Virus record (IMG/VR): IMGVR_UViG_3300009024_000058
Span: 1 to 27,733 of that record
DNA: 27,733 nucleotides
Source of the DNA: a virus
Strand: one strand, 5' to 3'
Shown in pieces: positions 1 through 27,733 of the stretch. How positions within the stretch are numbered: position 1 is the stretch's first letter; the number at the start of each line of letters is the position of its first letter. A program made the translations under genes and the position numbers. A model generated the notes under the pieces. The model did no database searches. It was given only the letters and a program-made list of their open reading frames with translations, and was not told the DNA's origin.

Positions 1-623
1 ACCCCGGCCCGATTGACGGCGTAAGAGGTCCAAGAACTGACGCGGCGGTTGTCGCGTTCAAGCGCTCTATCGGGTTTCTGCCCCGGCCATACATCGGACC
101 CCTGACGCTCGCGGCTCTGATGGACAGCGCACCAAAGAGCGAAATCCCTTGGATGGCTGAGGCTATCCGCGTCAAGGGGCTGCACGAGGTCAGGGACTAC
201 GCACGGTTGCGCGGATGGATGGATCGGGCGGTGTTCCCATATGATCCACGAGAGGTTGCGTGGTGCGGTTCCTTTGTGGCGACGTGCTTGCTCAAATGGA
301 GCGCGACAACGAAGCTGCCCGACAACCCGCTGGGCGCTAGGAACTGGTCTCACTACGGCCTTGAATGCACGCCTCAGATGGGGGCGATCATGGTTTTCTG
401 GCGAGGATCACGCAGCGGCTGGAAAGGTCATGTGGGGTTCTATTGGGGCGAGGACGACACCGCCTTTCATATTCTTGGCGGGAACCAATCCAATGCGGTG
501 ACAGTCGCTCGGGTTTCCAAGGACAGGTTCCTAGCCGCTCGCCAGCCATTAGGACACCGCCTGACAGGTGGTCCGATTTATCTGTCAAAGAGCGGCGTTC
601 CCCTGACAACAAACGAGGCTTAA
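1..623 (+). CDS. Endolysin: peptidoglycan-binding domain plus TIGR02594-type cysteine peptidase (5' end outside window)
   Basis: The reading frame is open from base 3, so the gene begins before the window. The visible N-terminus (through about base 120) reads like a PG_binding_1 repeat, with GPIDG and IGPLTLAAL. The rest matches TIGR02594/CHAP-like cell-wall hydrolases: the nucleophile is the Cys of AWCGSF (bases 264-266), the His is in GHVGF (429-431), and a GGNQ motif follows near the end. Inferred role: cutting host peptidoglycan at lysis. It heads a cassette with holin and spanin genes. A downstream ATG at 120 would drop the binding domain and is not the likely start. The family call is strong; whether it is an endopeptidase or an amidase cannot be told. 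Confidence 0.85.
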   Translation, partial: PGPIDGVRGPRTDAAVVAFKRSIGFLPRPYIGPLTLAALMDSAPKSEIPWMAEAIRVKGLHEVRDYARLRGWMDRAVFPYDPREVAWCGSFVATCLLKWSATTKLPDNPLGARNWSHYGLECTPQMGAIMVFWRGSRSGWKGHVGFYWGEDDTAFHILGGNQSNAVTVARVSKDRFLAARQPLGHRLTGGPIYLSKSGVPLTTNEA

Positions 624-638
624 CAACGAGGCTTAACA
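613..638 (+). repeat. Perfect 13-bp tandem duplication carrying the holin ribosome-binding site
   Basis: ACGAGGCTTAACA occurs twice head to tail. The first copy contains the endolysin stop codon (TAA, 621-623); the second ends immediately before the holin ATG and supplies GAGG as Shine-Dalgarno. It looks like a recent local duplication. Confidence 0.9.
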
Positions 639-836
639 ATGACTGAATACGCACCAATAATTCGGATCATCCTGCGCTATCTGGCGATGTTTCTGATGAC
701 CAAGGGCATAATGTCCGAACAGGCCGGTGAGCTATTCCTTGAACCGGCAACCCTGACAGCGCTGACAGGGCTTATCATCGGAGTGGGGACCGAGGTCTGG
801 TACAAGGTTTCCAAGAAACCCGGCAGGGCAACCTGA
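639..836 (+). CDS. Small holin-like membrane protein
   Basis: This 65-residue protein has an N-terminal hydrophobic stretch (about residues 5-25), a short acidic turn, a second hydrophobic stretch (about 35-55, rich in Leu, Ile and Gly) and a basic C-terminus. Size, topology and position directly after the endolysin fit the small holins annotated as Pam3_gp28-like; that family name is from memory. Inferred role: forming the inner-membrane lesion that lets the endolysin out. The start has a GAGG site in the duplicated leader. The stop overlaps the next start as TGATG, so translation is probably coupled. An antiholin cannot be excluded. Confidence 0.65.
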   Translation: MTEYAPIIRIILRYLAMFLMTKGIMSEQAGELFLEPATLTALTGLIIGVGTEVWYKVSKKPGRAT

Positions 837-1063
837 TGCTGGAATTACTCACGCCGATCTTGCCCTACCTGTTGACGGCGCTTGTCACCATTGCGGGGTT
901 CCTCGGGTATGGGGCCGTAAAGGAGAAAAAGGGCCGTGACAAAGAGCGTCGCCGGGCCAATGAAAGGGACCAAGAAAATGCAGATGATATTCGTGATCGC
1001 GTTGAGCGCGATCTTCCTGACCGGGTGCGTGAAGCCCACGACGATGCAGGGTGGCGCGACTGA
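836..1063 (+). CDS. Putative i-spanin (Rz-like)
   Basis: The 75-residue product has one N-terminal transmembrane segment (about residues 4-26) followed by a highly charged tail rich in Lys, Arg, Glu and Asp, expected to be helical. This is the design of inner-membrane spanins, which pair with an outer-membrane lipoprotein to disrupt the outer membrane at the end of lysis. The assignment rests on topology and context: it follows the holin gene, and a lipoprotein gene begins inside it in another frame. It is short for an i-spanin. No sequence family was recognised. Confidence 0.65.
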   Translation: MLELLTPILPYLLTALVTIAGFLGYGAVKEKKGRDKERRRANERDQENADDIRDRVERDLPDRVREAHDDAGWRD

Positions 1064-1202
1064 AACTGAGCTATGTCGCCAGTGGGGCGGATCACTTCCA
1101 AGCCGCTCGCGCCTTGACACAGATCAGACCAAGAAAGAAATCCAAGACGGGTATGGCACCTTTGTCTTGGCTTGCCCCAAGTTTGATCATCTGGTGCCTT
1201 GA
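978..1202 (+). CDS. Putative o-spanin lipoprotein (Rz1-like), overlapping the i-spanin gene
   Basis: The product begins with a lipoprotein signal peptide: basic start, hydrophobic core, and the lipobox LTGC near residue 17. The ATG at 978 is chosen because AAAGGGA at 962-968 is well spaced; in-frame ATGs at 936 and 960 would lengthen the protein. The mature part has paired cysteines (ELCRQWGG and VLACP). About 86 bases of the gene lie inside the i-spanin gene in a different frame, the arrangement known for Rz/Rz1. Lipidation follows from the lipobox; the partnership with the upstream product is inferred from position. Confidence 0.7.
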   Translation: MQMIFVIALSAIFLTGCVKPTTMQGGATETELCRQWGGSLPSRSRLDTDQTKKEIQDGYGTFVLACPKFDHLVP

Positions 1203-1480
1203 TGGATCAGGTTTTGAAATTTCTGCCGATTGGCGCGGCGGCGGTTGCGATCATCGCGGCAGCGTCGGTGGGTCAGTTTCAGCTTGGCGCGATTGCCGCT
1301 GAGACTGTTGAGAACGCTCGGGACATTGAAGAAAACGAGGACGATATTGAGGACATTCAGCGCTCCCTGATCAAGAGGCAGGGTGAGATTGGATTGGACC
1401 TTGAGCGATTGCGAATTGAGCAAAGCGCCCAAGGGTCAAAAATTGATCAAGTTTTAGAGTTGCTGCGTCAAGAGGATTGA
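1202..1480 (+). CDS. Membrane-anchored coiled-coil protein, unknown function
   Basis: The ATG at 1202 overlaps the o-spanin stop (TGATG) and is preferred over the TTG one codon upstream. The 92-residue product has an Ala/Ile/Val-rich membrane segment (about residues 6-30), then an acidic heptad-like helix rich in Glu, Asp, Ile and Leu. Its position at the end of the lysis cassette suggests a lysis accessory role such as an antiholin, but no family is recognised. It ends 12 bases inside the convergent leftward gene at 1468-1656, so the two transcription units meet tail to tail here with no obvious terminator. Confidence 0.6.
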   Translation: MDQVLKFLPIGAAAVAIIAAASVGQFQLGAIAAETVENARDIEENEDDIEDIQRSLIKRQGEIGLDLERLRIEQSAQGSKIDQVLELLRQED

Positions 1481-1656
1481 CCGCGCTTGATCTGGCTTTC
1501 GATGTTGCGCGTCATTATCCGAAGCTCGGCCAACCGGACGCTTCTTGTGAATGAGCCGGTGCCAACAACAATCCAAGCGCCCCTGACAGACACGCGAGCG
1601 ACCTTGCCATACAGCGCAAGATACGCGGCCTTGTACCTGTCGATGACCTCAGTCAT
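1468..1656 (-). CDS. Hypothetical small protein, last gene of the leftward early block
   Basis: A 62-residue basic protein of unknown function. Its start codon overlaps the stop of the preceding gene as ATGA (1653-1656), which supports it as a coupled, real gene despite its size. No motif or membrane segment is evident. It converges on the lysis cassette with a short tail-to-tail overlap. Confidence 0.5.
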   Translation of the reverse strand: MTEVIDRYKAAYLALYGKVARVSVRGAWIVVGTGSFTRSVRLAELRIMTRNIESQIKRGQSS

Positions 1657-1916
1657 GGGGAAACCCCCAAGATGAAAAGGATCATGCCAAGAACGGCGGC
1701 GATCTGAATGCCTATCAGCAAGCGTGCCCGTCGCGACTGTTCTTTGTGCATTTCAATGGCAAGCTCGAGAGCCTCTTTCCCCTTATCCCGGTGCGCCTTG
1801 GATTGCTTGATTATTTCAATGAACAGTTTGACACCTTCGGGATTGATGCTGACACCCTCGCCCATGACCATTGCGTGACGGATATGCTTTAACAGCGCCT
1901 CGTGATCTTCGTTCAT
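1653..1916 (-). CDS. Small C-terminally membrane-anchored protein
   Basis: The ATG at 1916 has a purine-rich site (GAGGGGG) seven bases upstream and overlaps the previous stop as ATGA; a longer frame to 1955 lacks this. The 87-residue protein is a charged helix (about residues 1-60) followed by a hydrophobic C-terminal segment (about 64-84, with Leu, Ile, Ala and Gly), so it is probably a tail-anchored inner-membrane protein. No family is recognised. Small membrane proteins in an early phage block can act on host functions or exclusion, but that is speculation. Confidence 0.6.
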   Translation of the reverse strand: MNEDHEALLKHIRHAMVMGEGVSINPEGVKLFIEIIKQSKAHRDKGKEALELAIEMHKEQSRRARLLIGIQIAAVLGMILFILGVSP

Positions 1917-2152
1917 GACCGCCCCCTCGCTTCCATCCATGCCAGCCGGTTGCAAGCGTTTCCGAATGTCTCGAGTTGATCGGGGTCAATATCGGGCCGG
2001 GCTGAAATATGCGCCAGCACGTCCTCTAGGGCCAGATGGAAGGGAAGGCCCGCTAAAACCTCGGAAACCGCCTCAGGCGGGCGCTCTGGCGCTCTGCGGG
2101 CGGAAATAATGCTGTCTCTCTGACTTTCGCGCAGAGTTTTGTCGTCAATCAT
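1913..2152 (-). CDS. Hypothetical protein
   Basis: A 79-residue soluble protein with an acidic central helix and no recognised family. The start is supported by the AAGGGGAAAACC leader directly upstream, the signature used by many early genes in this window. A G+C hairpin at 2171-2196 lies just ahead of this leader, so the gene may be transcribed or processed separately from those further upstream. The stop overlaps the next start as ATGA. Confidence 0.55.
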   Translation of the reverse strand: MIDDKTLRESQRDSIISARRAPERPPEAVSEVLAGLPFHLALEDVLAHISARPDIDPDQLETFGNACNRLAWMEARGRS

Positions 2153-2170
2153 GGTTTTCCCCTTAAAGAA

Positions 2171-2196: not shown

Positions 2197-2272
2197 AAGT
2201 TGAGTTGGGTCGGGTATTGAGCCTAAACCTCCAAAATGAGTTTACACGGCTGGTCCCCGCCGCCGGGCCTTG

Positions 2273-2789: not shown

Positions 2790-3065
2790 TTATCCCTTTC
2801 TGTTTTTCAAAGCTTGACGCTCTGCCAGCTTGTGGAGCGTCATTTCGAGAAATTCATCGACACTCAGGCTCATGGCAAGACACGCCCTGAAAATGAAGTC
2901 GATACTGGCACTGCTCTTGCCTCGTTCATATGTCGAGAGCGTCTGCCCTGACACGCCGGTCATTTTAGCAAGATCGGCTTGAGTGAGGTCGGCGCGGCGG
3001 CGAGCCTTTCGCAAGTCTCGGCCAAAGGCGCGGCGAACCTCTTTGGTGCAATTATAGTTTTTCAC
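2790..3065 (-). CDS. XRE-family (Cro/CI-type) transcriptional regulator
   Basis: The 91-residue protein contains a canonical HTH_XRE domain: an RKARRRADLTQADLAKMTGV core, then SGQTLSTYERGKSS as recognition helix and following turn (about residues 17-52). A GTG start at 3065 is chosen because GGAGG lies seven bases upstream and the codon overlaps the methyltransferase stop (GTGA); an upstream ATG would overlap that gene by 55 bases. A C-terminal helical tail may dimerise. It is the only Cro/CI-like regulator here and therefore a candidate reader of the GATCGTTWACC operators at 7503 and 26165. That link is inference. Confidence 0.8.
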   Translation of the reverse strand: MKNYNCTKEVRRAFGRDLRKARRRADLTQADLAKMTGVSGQTLSTYERGKSSASIDFIFRACLAMSLSVDEFLEMTLHKLAERQALKNRKG

Positions 3066-4099
3066 TTGGGTTCCTCCATGCTTATCCGCATCCGGTCCAT
3101 GATCCACGCGATGCAAGGCACCGCCATCGAATTGCCAATGGCTTTGTATCGCGGGCCATCGGCGGCGGGTTTGTTGCGGTGAGTGATCGCCGTAAAATCG
3201 TCAGGGAAGCCCTGCAACCGCTCACATTCGGTGGGCGTCAATCGGCGCATCGCCCAAGGCTGCGAGCCAGCATCGAAGCCTTGCCGTTCCGTGAATACTG
3301 CCGCCCCGATCTGATTGCGGATTGGCCCGTCATTGCACCGCGCGTCAAGCGTCGGCGCTACATCTGTGAAGCCACCGCCCGAAGGGCCGAACTCAACGCC
3401 TCTGGCAGAACCTTGCCCCGCTTGTTGGCGCGGCGGATGATCCCCGCGCAAGCGGTCTGGCTCAAGTAATACCGCTGCTGGATCGAGACAGTTTCCAAAA
3501 TCGACGAGAACGAACACGCGCCGCCGCCGCTGCGCCACTCCGAACCAGCGGGCGTCAAGAATGCACCATGCGAGCCGTGCCCTTGGCCCCTCAACCATAC
3601 CTTCAGTTGGCCAGCTTCCCCCGGCAGGTTGTGGTATGGCGTCCACTGCGCCGACAATTCCTCCCAAGAAATTCCCAAATGCGTTTCCCCTGTCTGACAG
3701 AACGCCGGGCACGTTTTCCCACAGGACCGCGAGTTTTCCATCAGGTCTAGCATCGGCAATTTCATGACATATTTCCACAAATTTCAGGGTGAGATTTCCA
3801 CGGTCGCCAGCGGTCCCGGCTCGAAGGCCCGCAATCGAAAAGTCTTGGCACGGCGTTCCCGCAACGAGAATGTCAGGCAGTGGAACCCCGCGCTGCCGCA
3901 ATAGCTCCGGCTTCACTTCGGTCATGTCACCCCAGAGCAATGGATCGCCTTGATTGTGGTCCTCTGGCAGTTTGTATCCATGCCGTGCTTGCAGTACCGC
4001 GCGGGGGAAAGGCTCGATCTCAGCGGCCATGCGCCAATCCATCCAAGGTGCGGCCACTTCCGGCGCACCAATCCCGCTGCAAAGCGTCATTCCGATCAT
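3062..4099 (-). CDS. DNA (cytosine-5) methyltransferase
   Basis: A complete C5-MTase of 345 residues that transfers methyl from S-adenosylmethionine to cytosine in DNA. Visible motifs in order: I (TLCSGIGAPE, residues 5-14), IV with catalytic Cys84 (GTPCQDFSIAG), VI (ENV, 128-130), VIII (QRRRRVF), IX (RRLTPTECERLQGFP) and X (YKAIGNSMAVP). The ATG at 4099 is chosen for its GAGGGGC site rather than an upstream ATG at 4144 that overlaps the previous gene. The target sequence cannot be read from the protein. No restriction enzyme gene lies beside it, so self-protection against host restriction is the simplest role. Confidence 0.92.
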   Translation of the reverse strand: MIGMTLCSGIGAPEVAAPWMDWRMAAEIEPFPRAVLQARHGYKLPEDHNQGDPLLWGDMTEVKPELLRQRGVPLPDILVAGTPCQDFSIAGLRAGTAGDRGNLTLKFVEICHEIADARPDGKLAVLWENVPGVLSDRGNAFGNFLGGIVGAVDAIPQPAGGSWPTEGMVEGPRARLAWCILDARWFGVAQRRRRVFVLVDFGNCLDPAAVLLEPDRLRGDHPPRQQAGQGSARGVEFGPSGGGFTDVAPTLDARCNDGPIRNQIGAAVFTERQGFDAGSQPWAMRRLTPTECERLQGFPDDFTAITHRNKPAADGPRYKAIGNSMAVPCIAWIMDRMRISMEEPK

Positions 4100-4109
4100 C
4101 GCTCGCCCC

Positions 4110-4511
4110 TCATGACGTGACTTTGCGGTACAGTGCGCTGTCAATGAGGCAGGGCGCGATGATGTAGCTTTCGCCGTTCTTGATAACCCTCATGGCTTGG
4201 GCGTCATAATGGATTGCGCCGCTGATGGAGCTGATGTTTTCGGTGCTTTCATACTCGAAGGATGGAGCATCCAAGTATCGAACGAATACCACCTTGGCAG
4301 CGCCCCGCGAATACCCAGCCTCAGGCATGACATGCTCGACCATATCGCCCGGCATAAACTTGACGCGGGACTTGTGTACCTCCCTGATTTCATCGGCAAG
4401 GGTCTCGGTCAGTGATTGATTAACCTGAAGCTCATCTGAGCGTGATGCGACACCCCCAAGCATTTCCTCTTTAATCATTTCGTTCAGCATTTCTTCAATG
4501 TCTTTACTCAT
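4110..4511 (-). CDS. Hypothetical protein, 133 residues
   Basis: This acidic soluble protein starts with a helical Met/Glu-rich segment (MSKDIEEMLNEMIKEEML), followed by a likely beta-rich domain (about residues 50-130). No family is recognised. Its start overlaps the DUF1364-type gene by ATGA, and its stop lies ten bases before the methyltransferase start, so it is an operon member. The methyltransferase's ribosome-binding site lies around its stop codon. Confidence 0.55.
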   Translation of the reverse strand: MSKDIEEMLNEMIKEEMLGGVASRSDELQVNQSLTETLADEIREVHKSRVKFMPGDMVEHVMPEAGYSRGAAKVVFVRYLDAPSFEYESTENISSISGAIHYDAQAMRVIKNGESYIIAPCLIDSALYRKVTS

Positions 4512-8177: not shown

Positions 8178-8360
8178 ATGAAAAAGACAGATGCACGCAA
8201 GCCAATCTCAAACCGGGGGATACCGGGGAAGGATTACGCCGCTGAGGTCGCTGAGATACTGAGGCGACCACTGAAAAACGTCAGCGGCACCCCGCAACAT
8301 GAGCGCAAGTTTTCAGGCGCTCGCGCGGTCAAGAAATACCTTGAAGGGAAGCGCAAATGA
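8178..8360 (+). CDS. Small basic protein preceding the helicase
   Basis: The 60-residue protein starts at ATG 8178, behind a perfect AAGGGGAACC leader. The frame is open further upstream but lacks a site there. It is Lys/Arg-rich (MKKTDARKPISNRG near the start, VKKYLEGKRK at the end). Its stop overlaps the helicase start (ATGA), so the two are translationally coupled. No family is recognised; a nucleic-acid-binding partner of the helicase is possible but unproven. Confidence 0.6.
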   Translation: MKKTDARKPISNRGIPGKDYAAEVAEILRRPLKNVSGTPQHERKFSGARAVKKYLEGKRK

Positions 8361-10825
8361 AGGTTGCTCGCCCGTATCAAGATCGGTCCATTGATCAGTT
8401 GAGACGCGCACTGAGGGCCGGGAAAAAGCGCGTCGTCCTGCAACTTCCAACCGGGGCCGGGAAAACCTTTATCGCATCAAAGATCATCGCCGGGGCGCGG
8501 GCCAAGGAAAACCGCGTTGCCTTTACCGTGCCGCTGATCAGTCTCATCGGACAGACCGTTGAGAGCTTTTCAAACGAGGAAATTGATGCGGGGGTTATCC
8601 AAGCGGATCACGCCCTGACCGACCCTGAAAAGCCGGTTCAGGTTGCGAGCGTCCAGACCCTTGTGCGCCGGGATCGGGCTGACGCTGGACTAGCTCACAC
8701 AAAGCTCGCGGTCGTCGATGAATGCTTTAGTGGCGACACCGAAGTCCTGACTTCCAATGGGTTTGTGCGCTTTGATGAGACAAGCGGCGATGAGCTTTTC
8801 GCGCAATACGACATTGAGACCTCTGGGATAAGCTTTGCCAAAGCCTCAAGGCGCGTAAAGCGTAAGGCCACAGGCGTGGTCTATTCTGTACGGTCAGATC
8901 AGGGCGTTGATTTGATTGTCACCGGCGGTCATGAAATCATCAAGCAGCACAGCAAAACGGGCGTCAGATCAAAGGTGGCGGTCGAGAATTTCAGGCCGAA
9001 CAGCTATTGGCGACTGCCGGTTGCTGGGAGAGGGACCGGGCCGGAATTCCCCATGTCATCTTGGGAGCGCTTCATGATTGCGTATCAAGCTGATGGCTCA
9101 CTGCATCGGGAAAACAATGACGGTAGCTCGACCCTTTCGTTCAGCTTTTCAAAGCAGCGCAAAATTGATGAATTCCTTCGCCTGATCGAAGAGACTGGTC
9201 TCCGGTGGAGCGAGGTTTCTGGAAAGCAGAAAGAGGGTGTGGTGAAGGCAAGGCGGCGCTTTATGGTTTATATTGGCAGCGCTCCATCAAAGCAGATTTC
9301 CCATCACTTCAATCTTGCCAGCCTGTCAGCCACAAAGGCCAAGGCAATCATTGCGGAAATGGTCAAATGGGATGGTCATATCAATGCCAGCGGGCCTCAC
9401 AGCCTTGGCTTGAATACGACAAGCAAGGATGCGGCTGATTTCTACTCTGCGGTCTGTGTGCTGGCCGGATACAAAGCGACTGTCAGGCGGGTAACTGATA
9501 AGCGATCCCCCAAATTCAATGACGTGTTCAGGGTGGGTATTCTTACCGACAGGGATTACATAGGCACGCAACAAGTCAGGATTGAAACTGAGGATTATTA
9601 CACTGGAGACCTGCACTGCGTAACTGTGCCAAAGGGCAATATCGTCGTTCGCAGGAACGGCAAACCGGTGATTGTAGGAAATTGCCATATCGCGTCAAAG
9701 GCCATTGATGATTGGATGGGCGAAGAGCCTGACACGATTTTCATTGGCCTGTCAGCGACGCCTTGGCGCTACGGAATGGCCGAGCAATGGGACCACCTGA
9801 TCATCGGCTCGACCATCAGGGAGCTAACAGAACAGGGGTATCTTTCCCCATCGCGTTTCTTTGCGCCTCAACACCCTGACCTTGGCAACGTCAAGTTGGT
9901 CGCTGGTGACTTCAAGCTGGATCAATTGGCTGAGGCCATGCAAAAGGGCGATCTTGTCAGCGGCATCGTTTCGAATTGGATCGAAAATGGCGAGCGCCGC
10001 CCAACGCTTTGTTTCTGCGTTGACCGCGCACATGCCAGAGCGGTTCACCACGAATTCATGCAGCACGAGGTCAGGTCCGCATATATCGACGGGAACACTG
10101 ACACGATTGAACGCGCAGTTATTCTTGAGCGGTTCAGCCGGGGCGAGCTTGAGGTCATCGTCAACATCGGGACCATGACAGCCGGGGTCGATCTGCCAAG
10201 CGTTAGCTGCGTGGTTTTGGCTCGGCCTACCCGGTCTGAAATGCTCTACATCCAGATGGTCGGTCGCGGATTGCGGTTGCATGAGGGGAAAGAGGATTGC
10301 CTTGTGTTCGATCACTCAGGCACCGCCCTCAGACTTGGCTTGCCTGAAAACATTCACCACGAGGAATTGCGAGCGCCGCGACTTGAGGAACGCGAAAAGG
10401 GCGAGGCTGTCAAAGAGCCTAAGCTGCCAACGGAATGCCCTGAGTGCAGCTACCTGATCGCAGTCGGGGAGTACGATTGCCCATGCTGCGGATACAAGGG
10501 TCAGCCGCCGGTCATCCAGCGTGAGGTGATTGACAGTGATTTGATTGAGGTCGGCAAGGGCAAGGCCGAGAAACCAGTGGCGACGCACGAGGAAAAGCAA
10601 TTTTGGTATTCTGAGCTGCTGACCTATTCCCGGTCGAAAGGCTACAAGGACGGTTGGGCGTCAAACAAGTATCGGGACAAGTTTGGCGTATGGCCTCGCG
10701 GTCTGGACAAGATACCGGCACGCAAAAGTGCCGACACGCGGATTGTTCGCGGCTGGATCAAACACACTCAGATTGCATACGCGAAACAAAAGGAAGCTGA
10801 GAAAAAACAGGCTAAGGCGGGATAA
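8357..10825 (+). CDS. SF2 DEAD/DEAH-type helicase precursor containing an intein
   Basis: An 822-residue precursor; after splicing the helicase would be 502 residues. Extein motifs in order: Walker A LPTGAGKT (residues 30-37), Ia (FTVPLISLIGQT), II (VVDE before the intein, CH after it, giving a DECH box), III (GLSATPWR), V (NIGTMTAGVDLPS) and VI (QMVGRGLR). The C-terminus has a four-Cys zinc ribbon (CPEC, CPCC, about 694-714) and a basic tail, resembling RadD/UvsW-like phage helicases. Likely role: ATP-driven unwinding or branch remodelling in replication and recombination. The mature enzyme cannot have an intact Walker B motif until the intein leaves. Confidence 0.9.
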   Translation: MKVARPYQDRSIDQLRRALRAGKKRVVLQLPTGAGKTFIASKIIAGARAKENRVAFTVPLISLIGQTVESFSNEEIDAGVIQADHALTDPEKPVQVASVQTLVRRDRADAGLAHTKLAVVDECFSGDTEVLTSNGFVRFDETSGDELFAQYDIETSGISFAKASRRVKRKATGVVYSVRSDQGVDLIVTGGHEIIKQHSKTGVRSKVAVENFRPNSYWRLPVAGRGTGPEFPMSSWERFMIAYQADGSLHRENNDGSSTLSFSFSKQRKIDEFLRLIEETGLRWSEVSGKQKEGVVKARRRFMVYIGSAPSKQISHHFNLASLSATKAKAIIAEMVKWDGHINASGPHSLGLNTTSKDAADFYSAVCVLAGYKATVRRVTDKRSPKFNDVFRVGILTDRDYIGTQQVRIETEDYYTGDLHCVTVPKGNIVVRRNGKPVIVGNCHIASKAIDDWMGEEPDTIFIGLSATPWRYGMAEQWDHLIIGSTIRELTEQGYLSPSRFFAPQHPDLGNVKLVAGDFKLDQLAEAMQKGDLVSGIVSNWIENGERRPTLCFCVDRAHARAVHHEFMQHEVRSAYIDGNTDTIERAVILERFSRGELEVIVNIGTMTAGVDLPSVSCVVLARPTRSEMLYIQMVGRGLRLHEGKEDCLVFDHSGTALRLGLPENIHHEELRAPRLEEREKGEAVKEPKLPTECPECSYLIAVGEYDCPCCGYKGQPPVIQREVIDSDLIEVGKGKAEKPVATHEEKQFWYSELLTYSRSKGYKDGWASNKYRDKFGVWPRGLDKIPARKSADTRIVRGWIKHTQIAYAKQKEAEKKQAKAG
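8723..9682 (+). other. In-frame intein (320 residues) with a LAGLIDADG-type homing endonuclease domain
   Basis: The intein starts at Cys123 (CFSGDTEVLT, block A) and ends at Asn442 (CVTVPKGNIVVRRNGKPVIVGN spans 20-odd residues here; its core is VVRRNGKPVIVGN, blocks F/G), followed by Cys443 as +1 residue. Block B is IVTGGHEII, with the usual Thr and His. Two dodecapeptide-like motifs, MIAYQADGS (about residue 240) and MVKWDGHIN (about 335), each keep the acidic residue, so the nuclease may be active. The penultimate residue is Gly rather than the common His, a known tolerated variant. Composition matches the flanking helicase. Confidence 0.9.
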
Positions 10826-14115: not shown

Positions 14116-14131
14116 GGGGGTCAAAGCCCCC
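14116..14131 (-). other. Intercistronic hairpin before the HNH gene leader
   Basis: GGGGG (14116-14120) pairs with CCCCC (14127-14131) around TCAAAG, and on the leftward message the stem runs straight into the AAAGGG leader. The same hairpin-plus-leader layout recurs at 14983, 17177, 17437 and 2171. Confidence 0.5.
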
Positions 14132-14961
14132 TACTTTTGAAATCTGGCGATCATGTCCGATGACCATTTCGCAGCGGTTTTGTCAGAGGACCAGATCGAG
14201 TTTTTCCCGCTTATCCCCTCAAGGACGATTGTGTTTTCCGCCTCGCTGCCCAAGATATTTGACCAAGCCTCGGCGGGGTTCTTTTCGATTTCGGAAACCT
14301 TATATCCGCCCTTCGTTGCCTTGCCGTGAACAATCCCCGTGACACCGTGGAACCCGGTGCGCAGAACCTGAGGCGATGAAACGGCCCAAGCCGCGCGAAC
14401 CAGATCAATCGGATCGGTCTCAACCTTGAACCCGACAACGGTGTTCGTGCCGCCGCTCCCGAGGCCCACCGCCGACCATAGCGTGATCGGCATGACCGCT
14501 GACAGCGCTCTGACAACAGCCAGCACCGTGACGCCGCGCCTGAGAATATGCTCTTTCGGCACATCAACCCGGTGCCAGTGACTGGCAACGAAGGTTACGG
14601 ACGGAGCCTGAACCCTGACAGGCTGACGCCGCCGCATGGACATTGGCGAACCCGCCAGCATGGCCGGGACATTCGGCGCACCACCGGCAATCGCCGGAAC
14701 GGATATGGTCCGCTCGACCTCGCCCATCATGTCATCAAAGCCGCGCATGATTACCTCGCTCTTACTGACAAGCGACCTGTCGCCGTGCGTCATGCCGTTG
14801 AAGGCTTGCCTGACACTGCCGCCAGCCCAAGCACCATCTGGATGACCATTGGCGTAGTCGGCAAGCGGCTTGTTGTGTTCCACGAGATACCCGCGCATCT
14901 CATCAGCGCTCTCAAAGAGAAACGCCTTGCCACCGTATTTGTGTTTGAAAATCTTAGCCAT
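14131..14961 (-). CDS. Possible VWA-like partner of the adjacent AAA+ ATPase
   Basis: The 276-residue protein starts at ATG 14961 with AAAGGGGAAAC upstream. Its middle contains APSVTFVASHWHRVDVP and a hydrophobic LRRGVTVLAVVRALS helix followed by a strand (MPITLWSAVG), the order seen in von Willebrand A-type domains, but the DxSxS metal site is missing. An N-terminal WAGGSVR stretch and NVPAMLAGSPMSMRRR resemble phage proteins found next to CobS/MoxR-like ATPases. The pairing with 15002-16249 is the main argument; the fold is not proven from sequence alone. Confidence 0.5.
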   Translation of the reverse strand: MAKIFKHKYGGKAFLFESADEMRGYLVEHNKPLADYANGHPDGAWAGGSVRQAFNGMTHGDRSLVSKSEVIMRGFDDMMGEVERTISVPAIAGGAPNVPAMLAGSPMSMRRRQPVRVQAPSVTFVASHWHRVDVPKEHILRRGVTVLAVVRALSAVMPITLWSAVGLGSGGTNTVVGFKVETDPIDLVRAAWAVSSPQVLRTGFHGVTGIVHGKATKGGYKVSEIEKNPAEAWSNILGSEAENTIVLEGISGKNSIWSSDKTAAKWSSDMIARFQK

Positions 14962-14982
14962 TTTGTTTCCCCTTTCTGTTAT

Positions 14983-15000
14983 GGCAGGGCCATCCCCGCC
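14983..15000 (-). other. Intercistronic hairpin after the AAA+ gene
   Basis: GGCAGGG (14983-14989) pairs with CCCCGCC (14994-15000), seven pairs with one G-U wobble in the leftward RNA and a four-base loop. It starts two bases after the ATPase stop codon and precedes the AAAGGGGAAAC leader of the next gene. Confidence 0.5.
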
Positions 15001-15001
15001 C

Positions 15002-16249
15002 TTATGCGTCGAGCATCAAGGCTTGCTCGGGCGAGACGTTCGCCAGATATGTCAGCCGTGCCGCCGCGTCAGCGCTCATCCCGCCAGCAATCAGCGCCGC
15101 GCCAGCCTCAGAGGCTCGCGGGGTGATCATGACTTTCAGACCGTTTTTCTCGGCGTTTGCCCGAGCGTTCTGTACGCGCTTTGCCCAATCTGCGTTGCCG
15201 CAAATCTTGCGTTCCAGAACCTCGTCGTAAGGCCAGTCGATGCGAGCGCCAAACCGGTCAAGGAATGCCGCGTCAATACGACTGCGACCAACGTATTCAG
15301 CGGTCGGACCTGACCCCCAAGTGTTGCCAGCGGCAAGACAGATGAAATCCGCATGCCGCGTGATCAACTCACCATTCGGCAAGCTCATCATGCCATTGGC
15401 CAGCGCTGCGTTGAGGGCCAGCCGCGCCTCATCACTACCGGCGTCAACCTCATCCAAGAGGATCACACCGCCGCTGCGATACAGGCGAACAAATGGCGTC
15501 TCGTGATAGCGACCGTTCGCGTCAACAAATCCGATCAATTCGTGCGCCATAAGCATGGCACCGTGAAAGTCGAATTCGAGACCGAGAACCTTGGCAAGCT
15601 GCTTGGCGGCGTAGGTCTTGCCGCTACCTGAGGGTCCAGAAATCCAGACATTCAGGGGCGTCCCGTCAGGACCGCGTGACACGGCAATCTGGACAAGGGT
15701 ATCGAAGCGCTTGTGGCGCATCCCCTCGACCTTGCCAATCTCAGCACGGTTCTGATCGACCACCAGCAAAGCCGGTTCCTGACCCTCAAGCGCGGTCAGG
15801 CGGTCGCGCAGTGTTGCGGTCGCCTTGATGACAGCGGCCTCAAGCGCGGCCTGATCAAGCTTTGGCGACAGGAGCGCCTCAAGCATTTCAAGCTTGCTCG
15901 CGGCATCACCGCTGAGGGCTTTAACCGGAGCCTCGACCGGAGCCTCGACCGGAGCCTCGACCGGAGCCTCGACTTCGGCCTCATCATCCCACGCAGCTTC
16001 CAGCGCAGCTTCAAGATCAGCTTCAAGATCAGCAATGTCGGCCTTAGCTGGTTTCGCTTTGTTAACCGGGTCAAGGTGATCAATCTTGATCGACCATTCC
16101 TCGGCCAAGTTGAACATATCCGAGACCGTCAGCTTTGCGCTGTTGGTATCGTTCGCGATACGCCAAGCTTTCCAACGCGGATGCTTGACGATGGACGAGC
16201 GCAACTCGCTGCGAGTTTCGTTCGTCAGTTTGAAATGTGGAGCGTTCAT
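15002..16249 (-). CDS. MoxR/CobS-like AAA+ ATPase
   Basis: A 415-residue AAA+ protein of the AAA_5 (MoxR/CobS) type. An N-terminal helical domain (1-60) is followed by an acidic linker with four EAPV repeats (about 94-109), then the ATPase: Walker A GPSGSGKT (205-212), Walker B VILLDEVD (262-269), sensor 1 CLAAGNTWG, and an arginine-finger region RSRIDAAFLDRFG. Relatives remodel partner proteins, often together with a VWA-domain protein, and the next gene may be such a partner. In phages the role is unknown. The AAAGGGGAAC leader lies upstream of ATG 16249, which overlaps the preceding stop by ATGA. Confidence 0.85.
   Translation of the reverse strand: MNAPHFKLTNETRSELRSSIVKHPRWKAWRIANDTNSAKLTVSDMFNLAEEWSIKIDHLDPVNKAKPAKADIADLEADLEAALEAAWDDEAEVEAPVEAPVEAPVEAPVKALSGDAASKLEMLEALLSPKLDQAALEAAVIKATATLRDRLTALEGQEPALLVVDQNRAEIGKVEGMRHKRFDTLVQIAVSRGPDGTPLNVWISGPSGSGKTYAAKQLAKVLGLEFDFHGAMLMAHELIGFVDANGRYHETPFVRLYRSGGVILLDEVDAGSDEARLALNAALANGMMSLPNGELITRHADFICLAAGNTWGSGPTAEYVGRSRIDAAFLDRFGARIDWPYDEVLERKICGNADWAKRVQNARANAEKNGLKVMITPRASEAGAALIAGGMSADAAARLTYLANVSPEQALMLDA
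15924..15971 (-). repeat. Four perfect 12-bp tandem repeats encoding (EAPV)4 in the AAA+ linker
   Basis: ACCGGAGCCTCG is repeated four times without change. The unit is a multiple of three, so copy-number change alters linker length without frameshift. It is a small in-frame minisatellite likely to vary among related phages. Confidence 0.9.
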
Positions 16250-18055: not shown

Positions 18056-18076
18056 GGGTGGCGATGACAGAAGTAT

Positions 18077-18126
18077 CCCCCCCATGTCCCCCCGCATGTC
18101 CCCCGCATGTCCCCCGTGTCCCCCCC
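18077..18126. repeat. Five-fold C-run array with G-quadruplex potential on the minus strand
   Basis: C-runs of 7, 6, 5, 5 and 7 bases are separated by ATGT, GCATGT, GCATGT and GTGT. On the minus strand these are five G-tracts with four- to six-base loops, well beyond the usual four-tract quadruplex rule. The spacer regularity (repeat unit near CCCCCGCATGT) argues for function. The array is about 165 bases upstream of the small terminase start. Confidence 0.8.
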
Positions 18127-18290: not shown

Positions 18291-18818
18291 ATGGTCAAGA
18301 TGATCAAGAACGCGCCACGTCAGCGCAAGGTCACAGCACCAATGGGCGACGCCGACTTTGGCACCAAGCTCAATGGCGAGGAAAAGATCAAACCCGGCAG
18401 AGACCAGATAGCCGCGCTGGATGATCAGGAATTCCAGCAAGTAATCCGCATGTGTCGGTGGCAAGCCTCAGCCGAGGAAGTGCGCGATGTGATGCAACTC
18501 ACACAGCAAACACTTGAGGCGCTTTGCAAGAAACATGGGTTTCCGTCCTTCAGGTCAGTTTACCTAAAATACAGTGCTGGCGGGCGGATGAGCTTGCGCC
18601 GGGCGCAGTATGCAGCGGCTATATATGACCGCAATCCGGCCATGCTTATATGGCTCGGAAAACAGCACTTGGATCAGGCTGACAAGAAGCACGTTATCAA
18701 TGAGAACATCGAAAAGCTGACGGTAGACCCGAGCAAGCTTTCGGATGAGACCCTGAAGGAAATCGTGGACAACGCTGAGGTCATCGACCTTGAGGCCAGC
18801 GAGTACAGTGAGGACTGA
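18291..18818 (+). CDS. Terminase small subunit, putative
   Basis: The 175-residue protein starts at ATG 18291, with AAAGGA eight bases upstream; the frame is open further upstream but without a good site. The N-terminus is basic. The middle has a helix-turn-helix-like stretch (ASAEEVRDVMQLTQQTLEALCKKHG) and a conserved-looking MSLRRAQ...PAMLIWLGKQHL segment seen in phage small terminases. These proteins bind the packaging site and load the large subunit. The gene directly precedes the large subunit with a TGATG overlap, which carries most of the weight. Confidence 0.75.
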   Translation: MVKMIKNAPRQRKVTAPMGDADFGTKLNGEEKIKPGRDQIAALDDQEFQQVIRMCRWQASAEEVRDVMQLTQQTLEALCKKHGFPSFRSVYLKYSAGGRMSLRRAQYAAAIYDRNPAMLIWLGKQHLDQADKKHVINENIEKLTVDPSKLSDETLKEIVDNAEVIDLEASEYSED

Positions 18819-20245
18819 TGCGGCTGACACCTCAGGACATTGTTGCCGCCGAAAAGGAAATGTGCAGTCGGTCTCTGTCATACTTCCTCAAGAGGGGCTG
18901 GCCCGTGATCGACCCCGGTCAGACCTACCTGCACGGATGGCACATGGATGCGATGGCAGAACACCTTGAGGCGGCGGTTGACGGGAAGATCAGCCGACTG
19001 TTGATCAACATCCCGCCGGGAACCTCGAAGTCCTCAATGGTCGGCGTGTTTTTTCCCGCGTGGCTATGGGGGCCGAAAGGTATGCCTCACTCGCGCATCC
19101 TGTCAGCCTCACATGAACAGGACTTGGCGATAAGGGATAACAGGAAGTCCCGGCTATTGATCGAAAGCGACTGGTATCAATCCCGCTGGCCAGTGCAGAT
19201 GACAAGCGACCAGAACGAGAAACGGTACTTCGAGAATGACAAGCGCGGGTTCCGTCAGGCGAGCGCAGTCAAGGGCATGACAGGCAAGCGTGGCGACTTT
19301 GTGATCTGGGATGATCCCCTGTCACCTGAGAAAGCCTACTCTGACGTTGAGCGCGAGACCGCGAACCGGGTATTCTCTGAGACCCTGCCACTGCGCCTGA
19401 ATAATCCCGATAGCTCGGTGATCATCATTGTCATGCAGCGACTGCACGAGGGCGACGTGTCAGGCTACATCCTCGAGAACGACTTTGGGTATGAGCATTT
19501 GATGTTGCCGATGGAATACGAACCTGATCGGGCGCGTACCACCTCTATCGGGTTCAAAGACCCAAGGACCAAAGAGGGCGAGCTTCTTATGCCGGATCGG
19601 TTCAGCCGCAAGACGGTTGAGCGCGACAAGAAAGTTCTGGGTCCGTTCGCACATGCTGGCCAGTATCAGCAAAGGCCAGCGCCACGAGAGGGTGGCCTGT
19701 TCAAGCCCCACAAGATGGAAGTGATCCAAGCGCCGCCGGTCTGCGTCAGAGAGGTCAGGGGGTGGGACTTGGCCGCGACCGCTGATGTGAGCGCCGCAAG
19801 GACCGCCGGGGTTCGCATCGGTCGGCTACCTGACGGACGAACGGTTATTGTCGATGTGGTGAAAGGTCAGCTCGGCCCGGCGGATGTTACGGCCCTGATC
19901 AAGAACACCGCTGCCATAGATGGCCGGGGGGTCGAAGGCTCGCTGCCACAAGACCCCGGTCAGGCCGGTAAAGCTCAGGTCCAGTCGCTACTGGCGAGCT
20001 TGGCAGGATTGGTTTATCGCGCTACACCGGAGACTGGTGACAAGGTGACAAGGGCGACACCTCTTGCAGCTCAGATTGACGCGGGGAATGTTTTGCTTGT
20101 CAAAGGGGATTGGAACCGCGATTTTATTAATGAGCTTGCAAGTTTTCCGTCTGGCAAATTTGCTGACCAAGTTGATGCGGCCTCAAGGGCGTTCATGGCC
20201 CTGACATTGGCACCGCCGCGAGCCAAGCAAGGAAGGCAACGATGA
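18818..20245 (+). CDS. Terminase large subunit (ATPase and nuclease)
   Basis: A complete 475-residue DNA-packaging motor. ATPase: Walker A-like IPPGTSKS (residues 65-72), Walker B FVIWDDP (161-167) and coupling motif VIIIVMQRLHEGD (201-213). The RNase H-like nuclease has acidic residues Asp317 (RGWDLAATAD), Asp379 (LPQDPGQ) and Asp450/Asp453 (KFADQVDAASRAF). It translocates DNA into proheads and cuts it to length. It resembles TIGR01630-type terminases. The start overlaps the small-subunit stop (TGATG) and its end overlaps the portal start (ATGA). Confidence 0.92.
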   Translation: MRLTPQDIVAAEKEMCSRSLSYFLKRGWPVIDPGQTYLHGWHMDAMAEHLEAAVDGKISRLLINIPPGTSKSSMVGVFFPAWLWGPKGMPHSRILSASHEQDLAIRDNRKSRLLIESDWYQSRWPVQMTSDQNEKRYFENDKRGFRQASAVKGMTGKRGDFVIWDDPLSPEKAYSDVERETANRVFSETLPLRLNNPDSSVIIIVMQRLHEGDVSGYILENDFGYEHLMLPMEYEPDRARTTSIGFKDPRTKEGELLMPDRFSRKTVERDKKVLGPFAHAGQYQQRPAPREGGLFKPHKMEVIQAPPVCVREVRGWDLAATADVSAARTAGVRIGRLPDGRTVIVDVVKGQLGPADVTALIKNTAAIDGRGVEGSLPQDPGQAGKAQVQSLLASLAGLVYRATPETGDKVTRATPLAAQIDAGNVLLVKGDWNRDFINELASFPSGKFADQVDAASRAFMALTLAPPRAKQGRQR

Positions 20246-22542: not shown

Positions 22543-22635
22543 GGGCCATTAAAGCGAACGGACGTTTGCGAAAATTGAAGGTCGGACGGCCAGCACCGCC
22601 TTGACAGGCAAACCCTCAAAATAGGAGACATGGAA

Positions 22636-23781
22636 ATGTCTAATACTCTATCTGGCCTCCTGCCGATCATGTATAACGCGATGAATGTCGTGTCGCGTGA
22701 ACAGGTTGGTATCATTCAGGCCGTATCTCGTGACGCAACGGCTGAAATGGCCGCTATCAACGCAACCGTCCGTTCGCCAGTTGTCGGCGCGATGGCCGCT
22801 GCTGACATTACCGCTGCCAACATCGCGGCAAGCGGCACTGATCAGACCATCGACTACGTTGACATGTCGATCACCAAGCAACGCAAGGTTTCTTTCAACC
22901 TGACCGGCGAAGAAAGCCGTGGCCTTGGCGACAAGAACAAGTCTGTCATTGCTGAGGGCCGTTTTGCCCAAGCCATGCGGACCCTGACCAACGAAATCGA
23001 AGCTGATCTTGCCGCGCTCTACGTCGGTGCCTCCCGCGCCTACGGTACGGCGGGAACCACGCCTTTTGGCACGGGTGATGACCTCACCGACCTGTCCGAA
23101 GCCATGCGTATCCTTGATGACAACGGCGCTCCGAAGTCTGACCGTCATGCGGTTCTGGGATCGGCGGCTGTTGCCAAGCTCATTGGTAAGCAACCTGCGT
23201 TCTTCAAAATCAACGAAGCTGGCGATGATACCGCTCGCCGGTTTGGTGCGATGGAACAGACCTTTGGCGCGTCTATGCACGCCTCTGGTGCGATTGCGAC
23301 CCACACGCCGGGAACCGCTGCCAACTACCTGATTGATGGCAACGTGGCCGCTGGCGTCGCTACGGTTCACCTTGACACTGGTACTGGTACGCACGTTGCG
23401 GGCGATCTGATCAGCTTTGCTGGCGACGCAAGCAAGTACGTCATCACGACCGGCGCGGCTGGCGATGGTGACAAGGACGTTGTTCTGGGAGCGCCCGGTC
23501 TGGTCGCTGCTGGTGCTGACGGCGTTGCTGCCTCTGGCACTGCTGCCTACGTTGCCAACATGGTGATGAGCCGTGACGCGATCCAGCTCGCGGCCCGTGT
23601 TCCTGCCCTGCCAGATGGTGGTGATCAGGCTGATGACCGGACCTATGTCGCCGATCCGGTTTCGGGTCTCGTGTACGAGATTTCGGTGTACCGTCAGTAC
23701 CGTCAGGTGACATACGAAGTCGCCATGTGCTGGGGCGTCAAGCTGATCAAACCGGCTCACCTTGGCTTGCTCATTGGCTAA
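22636..23781 (+). CDS. Major capsid protein, P22 coat-like (HK97 fold)
   Basis: A 381-residue coat protein. The N-terminus MYNAMNVVSREQVGIIQAVS and the following TVRSPVVG segment resemble the P22-type coat family; the C-terminal YRQYRQVTYEVAMCWGVKLI also fits. An insertion-like Gly/Ala/Thr-rich region (about 225-300) may be the I-domain equivalent. Two in-frame ATGs exist: 22636 is preferred because AGGAG at 22623-22627 is eight bases upstream of it but only two from ATG 22630. A strong terminator follows the gene, as expected for an abundantly expressed gene. Confidence 0.8.
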   Translation: MSNTLSGLLPIMYNAMNVVSREQVGIIQAVSRDATAEMAAINATVRSPVVGAMAAADITAANIAASGTDQTIDYVDMSITKQRKVSFNLTGEESRGLGDKNKSVIAEGRFAQAMRTLTNEIEADLAALYVGASRAYGTAGTTPFGTGDDLTDLSEAMRILDDNGAPKSDRHAVLGSAAVAKLIGKQPAFFKINEAGDDTARRFGAMEQTFGASMHASGAIATHTPGTAANYLIDGNVAAGVATVHLDTGTGTHVAGDLISFAGDASKYVITTGAAGDGDKDVVLGAPGLVAAGADGVAASGTAAYVANMVMSRDAIQLAARVPALPDGGDQADDRTYVADPVSGLVYEISVYRQYRQVTYEVAMCWGVKLIKPAHLGLLIG

Positions 23782-25021: not shown

Positions 25022-25027
25022 GACCGA

Positions 25028-25056: not shown

Positions 25057-25062
25057 AGAAAA

Positions 25063-25560: not shown

Positions 25561-25572
25561 AAGGGGTGAATT

Positions 25573-26166
25573 ATGCGTGGATTGACTATGGGAGCGGCTG
25601 GTTTTTCGTGGCCAGCGACGGACGTGTTTGGGGTGGGATCGGCCATTGAGGCCGCAAGTGATCTTGTTGAGGCTTATGCCTACGTCTCACGGTACGGAGA
25701 GGCGATTTGTACCGTAGGGGATTGCGGCGTTTCGGCGGTGCTTTTGTCAGCGGAATTCAGGCGGGTCGAAGCCTATGAGCCTGACCCCGAAAATTACAGG
25801 GCGCTCTTGAAGAATTCGACCGAGAACGTCATGCCCTACTGCGCCGGCCTTTCTGGCAAATCTGGGACTGGTCATCTTGTCAGGGATGATCCCGACAATT
25901 GCAGATCGAACCGGATCATCATGTCAGGATCAAAGGTTGAGGTCTTTACCCTCGACAGCCGGTCATCCCGGCCCGACCTCATTGTCATTGGCGAGACCAA
26001 TCAGGACGCGCTTACAGGCGCAACAAGAACCCTGTCAGAGAACCGCCCGGTCCTGTTCTGCTTTGGCAAGCCTGAACCGACCCTTGAGCCTTGGCTGGAG
26101 ACGGTCGGCTACCGGATCGTACAGCGCACAGATAGCGGGTTCATCTGTACTCATTCCGCCGATTGA
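25573..26166 (+). CDS. FkbM-like SAM-dependent methyltransferase, divergent
   Basis: A 197-residue protein with a Rossmann-type methyltransferase outline: motif I-like TVGDCGVSAVLLS (about residues 47-59), VEAYEPDPENYRAL carrying the acidic ribose-binding loop, and a C-terminal LTGATRTLSENRPVLFCFGK...VGYRI block as in FkbM enzymes. The usual KxDVEG segment is replaced by LIVIGETNQD, so activity is uncertain. FkbM relatives O-methylate sugars. AAGGGG lies six bases before ATG 25573. It follows the structured RNA and may be read from the same transcript. Confidence 0.6.
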   Translation: MRGLTMGAAGFSWPATDVFGVGSAIEAASDLVEAYAYVSRYGEAICTVGDCGVSAVLLSAEFRRVEAYEPDPENYRALLKNSTENVMPYCAGLSGKSGTGHLVRDDPDNCRSNRIIMSGSKVEVFTLDSRSSRPDLIVIGETNQDALTGATRTLSENRPVLFCFGKPEPTLEPWLETVGYRIVQRTDSGFICTHSAD

Positions 26167-26208
26167 TCGTTTACCTATTGAATGGATGATCGTTAACCAC
26201 TAGGTTGG
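26165..26208. promoter_or_regulatory. Double operator-like site with embedded promoter upstream of the accessory cassette
   Basis: GATCGTTTACCTATTGAA (26165-26182) matches 16 of 18 bases of the site at 7503, and GATCGTTAACC recurs at 26188, where AACC-ACTA-GGTT forms an inverted repeat. TTGAAT (26178-26183) and TAGGTT (26201-26206), 17 bases apart, are a weak promoter candidate that the sites would cover. Confidence 0.5.
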
Positions 26209-26238
26209 TTTGTGCAAATCCAATCAAAGGGGAAACCG

Positions 26239-26502
26239 ATGGATATTTCAGAAAAAGAAGCGAAGAGGTTGATTGACGTTGCTATTGAAAAAGCTGCGGC
26301 GGCCTCAAGGAGCATCTGCGTCGGGGAGCAAAGTCCAGAGGTGATGCTACTCGCGCTCGAAATGACAATCTCAATTGTCGCGTCATGGGCTTGTGGCGAG
26401 GATGAGGCTATGGCCACCGAAGTGATCGAAAGCGCCCTTGCTCCAGCCGCTGTCGCGCGGATCAAAAGGCTTTCATTTGGCGGTGTGCGTTATGACCACT
26501 GA
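26239..26502 (+). CDS. Hypothetical helical protein, 87 residues
   Basis: The first gene of a small-gene cassette, with a full AAAGGGGAAACC leader before ATG 26239. The product (MDISEKEAKRLIDVAIEKAA) is nearly all helical, with a hydrophobic middle (MLLALEMTISIVASWAC) that might be a buried or membrane helix. No family is recognised. Control by the double operator just upstream is likely from position. The next gene starts 11 bases before its stop. Confidence 0.55.
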   Translation: MDISEKEAKRLIDVAIEKAAAASRSICVGEQSPEVMLLALEMTISIVASWACGEDEAMATEVIESALAPAAVARIKRLSFGGVRYDH

Positions 26503-26842
26503 ACAAGAGGAAAAGCTCAAGGTCAACATGACCGACAAGTATGCTCACGAGTTCGACCCAACCGCAGAGGTTCGCGTCCTGACCGTTGACGGAACCCTCC
26601 CCGGACACCCCGTAGTGGTGCAGGATAAGGAAGGCCGGATTACCCGGCATACATCGGATGGCACCAGCAGGTTTGGCCGTCCAAACCTCAAGCTCGTCCC
26701 GCTGGAAGAGCCGCTACCTGAGGGGTGGGTGAATATATACCAGAACGGGCGGCTTGGGGCTTATCACGCCAGTAAAGCAGAAGCCCAGCGGTATGCTGTG
26801 GGCGCTGTTCGCACAATCCATCTGCGGGAGGTGCAGGAATGA
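26492..26842 (+). CDS. Hypothetical protein, 116 residues
   Basis: Two starts are possible: ATG 26492, which overlaps the previous gene by 11 bases but has a weak site, and ATG 26528, which has AAGG five bases upstream and gives MTDKYAHEFDPTAEVRV. The protein has two likely beta segments (VRVLTVDGTL, HPVVVQDKEGRI) and a C-terminal GWVNIYQNGRLGAYHASKAEAQRYA stretch of a type seen in small phage proteins. No function is assigned. The stop overlaps the next start (ATGA). Confidence 0.55.
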   Translation: MTTEQEEKLKVNMTDKYAHEFDPTAEVRVLTVDGTLPGHPVVVQDKEGRITRHTSDGTSRFGRPNLKLVPLEEPLPEGWVNIYQNGRLGAYHASKAEAQRYAVGAVRTIHLREVQE

Positions 26843-27033
26843 CATACCAAGAAGCAATCCGCGCCCTAAATGCCGCCGCCTATGCCGCCATTCGCGCGGG
26901 TGGCGACACAGCGGCTCTACCTGACGTTGACAGGCATTCACTGCGCCTAATCGCAAGCGAGACTGACAGGCTGGTGGATTACATAGAGAGCAGCGGGCGG
27001 TATCCGTCACGGATCAGGGGGGCGAGCCAATGA
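26839..27033 (+). CDS. Hypothetical small protein, 64 residues
   Basis: An Ala/Arg-rich soluble helical protein coupled by ATGA to both neighbours. No family is recognised. Coupling and the lack of space for alternatives support the gene. Confidence 0.5.
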   Translation: MTYQEAIRALNAAAYAAIRAGGDTAALPDVDRHSLRLIASETDRLVDYIESSGRYPSRIRGASQ

Positions 27034-27266
27034 CCGAAGCACCAGAACGGATTTGGGCCACTGGAAACGGAACTACCGGCAGTTGGAACGATGACGAAGT
27101 CCGCATGAAAAAACATATGCCAGAAGGTTGGCAAACCGAGTACGTCCGCGCCGATCTTGTTGCCGATCAACAGGCCCTGAGGGCTGCGTTAAAGGCAATT
27201 ATGGAGGCGTCTGAACACAGGGATTTAAGCGCCTGCTATGCACTTGCTCATAAGGCTCTGAAATAG
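27030..27266 (+). CDS. Small phage protein of the PERIWA...EYVRADL type
   Basis: The 78-residue protein has the pattern APERIWATG near the start and TEYVRADL in the middle, which is recurrent in small accessory proteins of many phages, usually of unknown role; the C-terminal half is helical. It overlaps the previous stop by ATGA. A 50-base gap with AAGGAG separates it from the next gene. Confidence 0.6.
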   Translation: MTEAPERIWATGNGTTGSWNDDEVRMKKHMPEGWQTEYVRADLVADQQALRAALKAIMEASEHRDLSACYALAHKALK

Positions 27267-27316
27267 ATGGCCTGCCCGCAATCCCTGATCGCCCCACCCA
27301 CACAAGGAGAAACGAC

Positions 27317-27664
27317 ATGAGCCTGATAGACGACATTCGCCGCGACCGTGAAGCTGGTACGCCGGGGGATTGGAGCGCGGCACTTGGGCGCGGATGCCAT
27401 GGTGTAATTGCCGCCGAATTGCCCGAGGATGGTGCCAACTTTGTGGCACTGGTCGCCAACGACAAAGACACACCGGAGAGGGAGCCAACCCGCTTTGCCA
27501 ACGCCCGCCGCATTGCCCGCGTCCCACAACTAGAGGCGCTGGTGCTGGCTGCGGACGAACTGGCGGAGGCTGTTCGCTCTGAGATATTCTACTCTCGTGA
27601 TGGTGCCCCGAGCCTGACCGAAGCCCTCGCCAAATACGAAGCCGCGAATGAGGCGCAGACATGA
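27317..27664 (+). CDS. Hypothetical protein, 115 residues
   Basis: AAGGAG lies ten bases before ATG 27317. The soluble protein begins MSLIDDIRRDREAGTPGDW and continues with FVALVAND, ANARRIARVPQLEALVLAADELAEAV, a layout common in phage accessory proteins of the same small-gene cassettes. The C-terminal half is helical. No function is assigned. The stop overlaps the next start (ATGA). Confidence 0.55.
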   Translation: MSLIDDIRRDREAGTPGDWSAALGRGCHGVIAAELPEDGANFVALVANDKDTPEREPTRFANARRIARVPQLEALVLAADELAEAVRSEIFYSRDGAPSLTEALAKYEAANEAQT

Positions 27665-27733
27665 GTTACAGAACCGAACTCCTCACGCGCTGGCAGGAGC
27701 AAAACCGCCTGTGCATCTGGTGTGGTCGTGAAA
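27661..27733 (+). CDS. Probable HNH-endonuclease-type protein (3' end outside window)
   Basis: Only the first 24 codons are visible: MSYRTELLTRWQEQNRLCIW followed by CGRE. The CxxC knuckle close to the N-terminus after a Trp/Gln-rich helix is the usual beginning of zinc-stabilised HNH endonucleases. The start overlaps the previous stop by ATGA. The catalytic part is not in the window, so the call is tentative. Confidence 0.5.
   Translation, partial: MSYRTELLTRWQEQNRLCIWCGRE

Follow-up and report, generated by a model that had tools for sequence, protein, structure and literature searches.

The stretch of DNA analysed here (hereafter the window) comprises positions 1 to 27,733 of the IMG/VR fragment IMGVR_UViG_3300009024_000058 (27,733 nt) and belongs to a siphovirus, probably one of Rhodobacteraceae. 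It lacks the pentamer GANTC on both strands, together with many other palindromic motifs. The features on which the following argument relies are (observed/expected counts in the first line):

1..27733, no strand: region free of GANTC (0/128), CCWGG (0/66), GRGCYC (0/40), GWGCWC (0/33), CCYRGG (0/31), RGATCY (0/30) and GAYRTC (0/28), and of GCGCGC, GGCGCC, CCGCGG, CGGCCG, CGATCG, CAGCTG, ATCGAT and others
3062..4144, minus strand: C5-cytosine DNA methyltransferase of the Dcm/HhaI type, 360 aa (Pfam PF00145, E=1e-30; PHROG 116)
8357..10825, plus strand: SF2 helicase with an intein at about residues 127-440, free of GANTC (Pfam ResIII/Helicase_C; translation)
18818..20245, plus strand: terminase large subunit (TerL), the basis of the tree of relatives; its closest relatives belong to Roseovarius/Rhodobacteraceae elements (60-62% identity)
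22630..23781, plus strand: major head protein, which retrieved the sibling contigs L002, L163 and L167 (100%) and the relatives L164-L166 (66-74%)

The initial annotation had claimed a total absence of GANTC, and this is borne out: the window contains no site, against a mean of 128.3 (standard deviation 10.8) in 100 dinucleotide shuffles. The mononucleotide expectation is 105, and the G+C content is 56.0% rather than about 58%. A codon-preserving null model, in which the proteins and total codon usage of the 31 predicted genes were fixed and synonymous codons were shuffled (200 shuffles), still predicts 44.5 ± 5.6 GANTC in the coding sequence (minimum 29) and 65.6 ± 6.5 CCWGG, with none observed in either case; both types of shuffling that had been proposed as a check on the claim thus predict many GANTC where there are none. 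Among the 24 pentamers in which each of the four bases occurs once and N stands in the middle, GANTC is the sole missing one, the others having observed/expected ratios (O/E) of 0.70-1.83. Sequences one mutation away from GANTC occur at expectation (O/E 0.86-1.32), so that new sites should keep arising and be purged. Two arguments that had accompanied the claim carry little or no weight. The intein of the helicase, inserted inside the DECH (Walker B) motif (VVDE/CFSGDT...VIVGN/CHIAS), spans about 0.94 kb and would hold just 1-4 GANTC by chance. The window is indeed devoid of tRNAs, but so are most short phage fragments.

The abundance of GATC and GAATTC had also been taken as a sign that the loss is specific to GANTC. 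This reasoning fails, because CCWGG, several degenerate palindromes and 38 of the 64 six-base palindromes (4.2 ± 1.7 expected) are equally absent from the window. In the coding sequence alone, 39 six-base palindromes are missing, against 5.1 ± 1.9 in the codon shuffles, and the summed six-base palindromes of the window amount to 0.39 of the expected number. Four-base palindromes deviate little from normal (O/E 0.69-1.23), and GAATTC, TGATCA, AAGCTT, AGCGCT, TGGCCA and CGCGCG are kept near or above expectation, which makes the pattern bimodal. Such a pattern is predicted by enzyme-specific selection and not by general palindrome avoidance; a general avoidance of hairpins or palindromes was rejected, given that four-base palindromes are normal and some six-base ones common. 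The observed counts of TGATCA (24) and GAATTC (28) are close to their highest-order expectations (33.3 and 22.9, respectively). That both exceed a first-order model probably results from displacement: as RGATCY and GAATC are forbidden, the surviving GATC and GAATT contexts would concentrate in these two sites.

The pattern recurs in further contigs of the same phage. The sibling contigs L002, L163 and L167, which come from records of three IMG datasets, match the window at 99.95-99.99% and each contains no GANTC. The record of L163 (L163/L169) extends the window by 16.3 kb, giving 44 kb of a genome that is still incomplete; the extension encodes a head-morphogenesis-like protein, a tail terminator, a major tail protein, a tape measure protein (2,024 aa) and tail fibre genes. 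A count in the rest of the genome had been suggested as a further check, and these additional 16.3 kb contain neither GANTC (65.7 expected) nor CCWGG (33.9 expected). The set of absent palindromes was defined on the window and then tested on this independent sequence, where the 38 missing ones total 8 occurrences (151.5 expected), compared with 87 (130 expected) for the 26 six-base palindromes that the window contains. A tandem C-rich low-complexity repeat (CATGTCCCCC units) is located at 18,076-18,124, in a segment of about 1.3 kb (16.9-18.2 kb) that has no clear genes; both L163 and L167 begin there, identifying it as an assembly break point.

For the 44 kb, we tested the 96 REBASE palindromes with an expectation of at least 15, considering as eliminated those with O/E < 0.1; the expectation was first-order Markov, in place of the compositional-bias formula of Rusinov et al. 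(2018; PMC6286503), in which a zero count also gives 0. Twenty palindromes are eliminated, including GANTC (0/195), CCWGG (0/102), GRGCYC (0/61), RGATCY (0/45) and 16 more, and 17 of the 20 are non-nested (GAWTC, GGGCCC and GGATCC being nested within others), whereas none was eliminated in 30 second-order simulations. The loss is concentrated in palindromes: among 6-mers with an expectation of at least 10, those containing GANTC or CCWGG being left out, O/E is below 0.1 for 21 of 35 palindromic versus 33 of 2,199 non-palindromic ones. A few non-palindromic motifs are also scarce in the window and L163/L169, namely ACTGGG, the BfiI/BmrI site (0 versus 19.5 on both strands), GAAGAC (2/21) and GAGGAG (2/21), and ACTCC is strongly low on the plus strand of the window (3/21); the phage may avoid Type IIS sites, which are asymmetric, or motifs that resemble ribosome-binding sites. 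Conversely to GANTC, TGNCA is 1.8-fold over-represented over the 44 kb (390 versus 213).

The comparison with relatives covered 158 loci that carry TerL and are 5 kb or longer (82 viral and 76 from genomes). The median O/E of GANTC among them is 0.30, and GANTC is eliminated (O/E < 0.1) in 17 of the viral loci (four being the window and its siblings) and in one of the genome loci. Six 20-kb stretches of the chromosome of a Roseovarius metagenome-assembled genome (MAG) gave an O/E of 0.32 for GANTC and 0.82 for six-base palindromes, none of which is absent. A roughly threefold GANTC deficit is thus ordinary both for alphaproteobacterial phages and for a host-like chromosome; complete loss is not, and the window exceeds this background. 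In the TerL tree, the elimination state requires at least six changes, and total loss arose several times. The supported TerL group of the window, formed by the Roseovarius/Rhodobacteraceae elements L083 and L086 and the viral locus L030, keeps GANTC at an O/E of 0.19-0.51 (15-31 sites each), and the capsid relatives L164-L166 hold 9-18 sites, indicating that complete loss is not common to the nearest known relatives. L083 is one of three near-identical copies (with L084 and L085) of a terminase-bearing element in a single uncultured Roseovarius chromosome (OX638333.1).

A link between the loss of GANTC and the C5 methylase of the phage was rejected, since L168, whose methylase is 72% identical to that of the window, keeps 11 of 35 expected GANTC. 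For a linked loss of GANTC and CCWGG, the TerL tree offers six independent pairs, too few for a test. With respect to a trade-off between adenine methylases and GANTC loss, PF01555 and PF05869 were searched in 41 records; these families are not GANTC-specific and most of the records are fragments. In a distant TerL clade of viral contigs (L058, L064, L065, L067, L070, L071, L072, L076 and L077; about 46% identical), GANTC and CCWGG are both nearly gone, as exemplified by L064 (0/152 and 0/34, respectively), and other six-base palindromes are just mildly reduced; the two losses are paired here as well, independently of those in the window phage. The lowest level of six-base palindromes among the loci compared (0.21 of expectation) is that of L149, a prophage-like locus of a Burkholderiales MAG.

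Ridding the genome of orthodox Type II sites is an established strategy of double-stranded DNA phages, above all of non-temperate ones (Rusinov et al., 2018; PMC6286503), and the window phage is an extreme case of this known phenomenon. As in that study, palindromic orthodox Type II sites fall below 0.1 of expectation (20 palindromes at their thresholds, O/E < 0.1 and more than 15 expected, over 44 kb) without a general bias, and long bipartite sites of the Type I kind are not conspicuously lost; the difference is that more than a fifth of the testable REBASE palindromes are gone from one partial genome. Escherichia phage T7, a lytic phage without many sites, resembles it in its low CCWGG, RGATCY and GRGCYC, but T7 avoids GATC and CCNGG, whereas the window phage has normal GATC and no GANTC. 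In the same test, six palindromes are eliminated in T7, three in lambda and one in Paracoccus phage Pkon1. Roseophage SIO1 (13 eliminated) and Erythrobacter phage vB_EliS_R6L (15 in its first 50 kb) have lost different sets of sites, the loss of RGGWCCY and GRGCYC being common to both and the window phage; unlike the latter, they have GANTC at the level usual for the class (52/167 and 55/257, respectively). R6L encodes a CcrM-like methylase (PMC5463345), whereas none was found in the 44 kb of the window phage. Of the few phages compared here, the window phage is the most extreme. Other alphaproteobacterial phages, such as PhiLM21 and its relatives (PMC5537653) and vB_OspM_OC (PMC7139368), have likewise adapted to GANTC, but in the opposite way, as they encode GANTC-specific methylases and modify the site by methylation rather than lose it. 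According to Seong et al. (2022; PMC9516812), about half of the pelagiphages are depleted in GANTC, past or related-host restriction being proposed there as one reason; GANTC has been removed lineage by lineage in these alphaproteobacterial phages as in the window phage. The passages of that study on the subject treat GANTC alone, whereas here CCWGG and many further sites have disappeared along with it, which favours restriction rather than CcrM.

We consider it likely (with a probability of roughly 0.8) that the loss of GANTC is part of a broad purge under selection by many Type II restriction-modification (R-M) systems. Each unmethylated site would carry a chance of cutting when the phage enters a host with the corresponding enzyme, and site-free mutants would leave more offspring until the site disappears. 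The most abundant targets lost are GANTC (HinfI-type) and CCWGG (EcoRII-type); in all, at least 17 non-nested classes of palindromes are affected. Restriction endonucleases would then be the selecting agent, and the phage would meet many different R-M systems, either through a broad host range or in a host population diverse in R-M systems; the loss of GANTC would have the same cause as that of the other sites, on top of the class-wide threefold depletion common to host chromosomes. The pattern fits selection by many orthodox Type II enzymes in that it is confined to palindromes, nearly all-or-none for each site, leaves the neighbours of GANTC untouched and spares a defined subset. The data support the strong, long selection and the escape from restriction proposed in the initial annotation, but not its GANTC specificity or a CcrM or cell-cycle cause.

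In support of this interpretation, relevant endonuclease families occur sporadically among 199 genomes from the Roseovarius family, to which the nearest prophage belongs and which served as a proxy for the host: EcoRII-C in 11, BsuBI/PstI in 5 and SacI in 2, with HindIII in none. Other observations weigh against it. GAATTC is kept in the phage even though EcoRI-family genes are present in three of these genomes (two of them with stops). No cognate endonuclease was matched to the phage; a GANTC endonuclease was not among the families searched. Finally, four-base sites, which are expected to be strong targets, are not avoided. The C5 methylase of the phage (3062-4144), whose closest solved structures include the HhaI and HaeIII methylases, may protect these four-base sites and, as a second anti-restriction layer, could guard retained sites.

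Alternatively, CcrM itself could be the cause, if methylated or hemimethylated GANTC were read by host cell-cycle regulators (GcrA) or titrated CcrM, so that its loss would free the phage from cell-cycle control, the other motifs being lost separately. This is consistent with GANTC being the largest single deficit, with its threefold depletion across TerL relatives and the Roseovarius chromosome, and with the depletion of pelagiphages even though SAR11 genomes seem to be without R-M systems (PMC9516812). However, an escape from CcrM and GcrA calls for a loss specific to GANTC, whereas CCWGG and about 15 other classes, most without a link to CcrM, are equally lost in the same genome, and the nearest TerL kin keep their GANTC. 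The carriage of GANTC methylases by many alphaproteobacterial phages (PMC5537653, PMC7139368) further indicates that methylated GANTC is tolerated, and we regard a role of CcrM as the driving cause as improbable. The C5 enzyme of the window phage, the sole DNA methylase found in the window (Pfam, PHROG), is not an adenine methylase and cannot act as CcrM, and no CcrM-like N6-adenine methylase of the families tested (PF01555 and PF05869) was found in the 44 kb or in the sibling record G001, the genome being incomplete.

Less probable still is a mutational decay in which cytosine methylation, whether due to the host or to the phage C5 enzyme, would turn C to T and erase sites without selection. 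The phage does encode a C5-methyltransferase, and the CCWGG neighbours TCWGG/CCWGA are enriched about twofold, but the deamination product of GANTC (GANTT) and the Dcm-type product (CTWGG) stand at 1.12 and 1.25 of expectation, mutation by itself does not keep over 20 motifs at a count of zero, and L168 keeps GANTC alongside a closely similar methylase. That the zero is the chance tail of ordinary alphaproteobacterial depletion and codon bias, which do lower the expectation, is refuted by a Poisson probability of about 1e-18 for the window and 1e-27 over 44 kb at the host-like baseline of 0.32. An assembly or library artefact, such as restriction-based fragment selection, might be suspected in a metagenomic fragment with a low-complexity break, but is practically excluded by the agreement (> 99.9%) of contigs from three datasets, the intact reading frames and the coexistence of common and absent palindromes.

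Among the remaining genes, one encoding a CobS-like AAA ATPase adjoins a DUF7192/phrog_1909 gene on the minus strand (14131-16249). Neither an integrase nor a repressor was detected among the genes examined in the 44 kb of this incomplete genome. Assigning the phage to a named host by its capsid was rejected, as this gave only a 45% match, located in the Roseovarius MAG.

As a natural case of restriction-site removal by a phage, the window phage is unusually complete. Before CcrM is invoked for a GANTC deficit in an alphaproteobacterial phage, other palindromes should be counted and the class-wide background (about 0.3) should be subtracted. Which sites are missing and which are kept also predicts the enzymes of the host. 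More speculatively, and with little confidence, the missing sites might document, in readable form, which R-M systems the phage lineage has encountered, including GANTC endonucleases of alphaproteobacteria without their own methylase, the chromosome being protected by CcrM. If so, this record would imply that the host range is unusually broad or the R-M systems unusually diverse, and in the presence of such CcrM-protected GANTC endonucleases just those phages that delete or methylate GANTC would survive.

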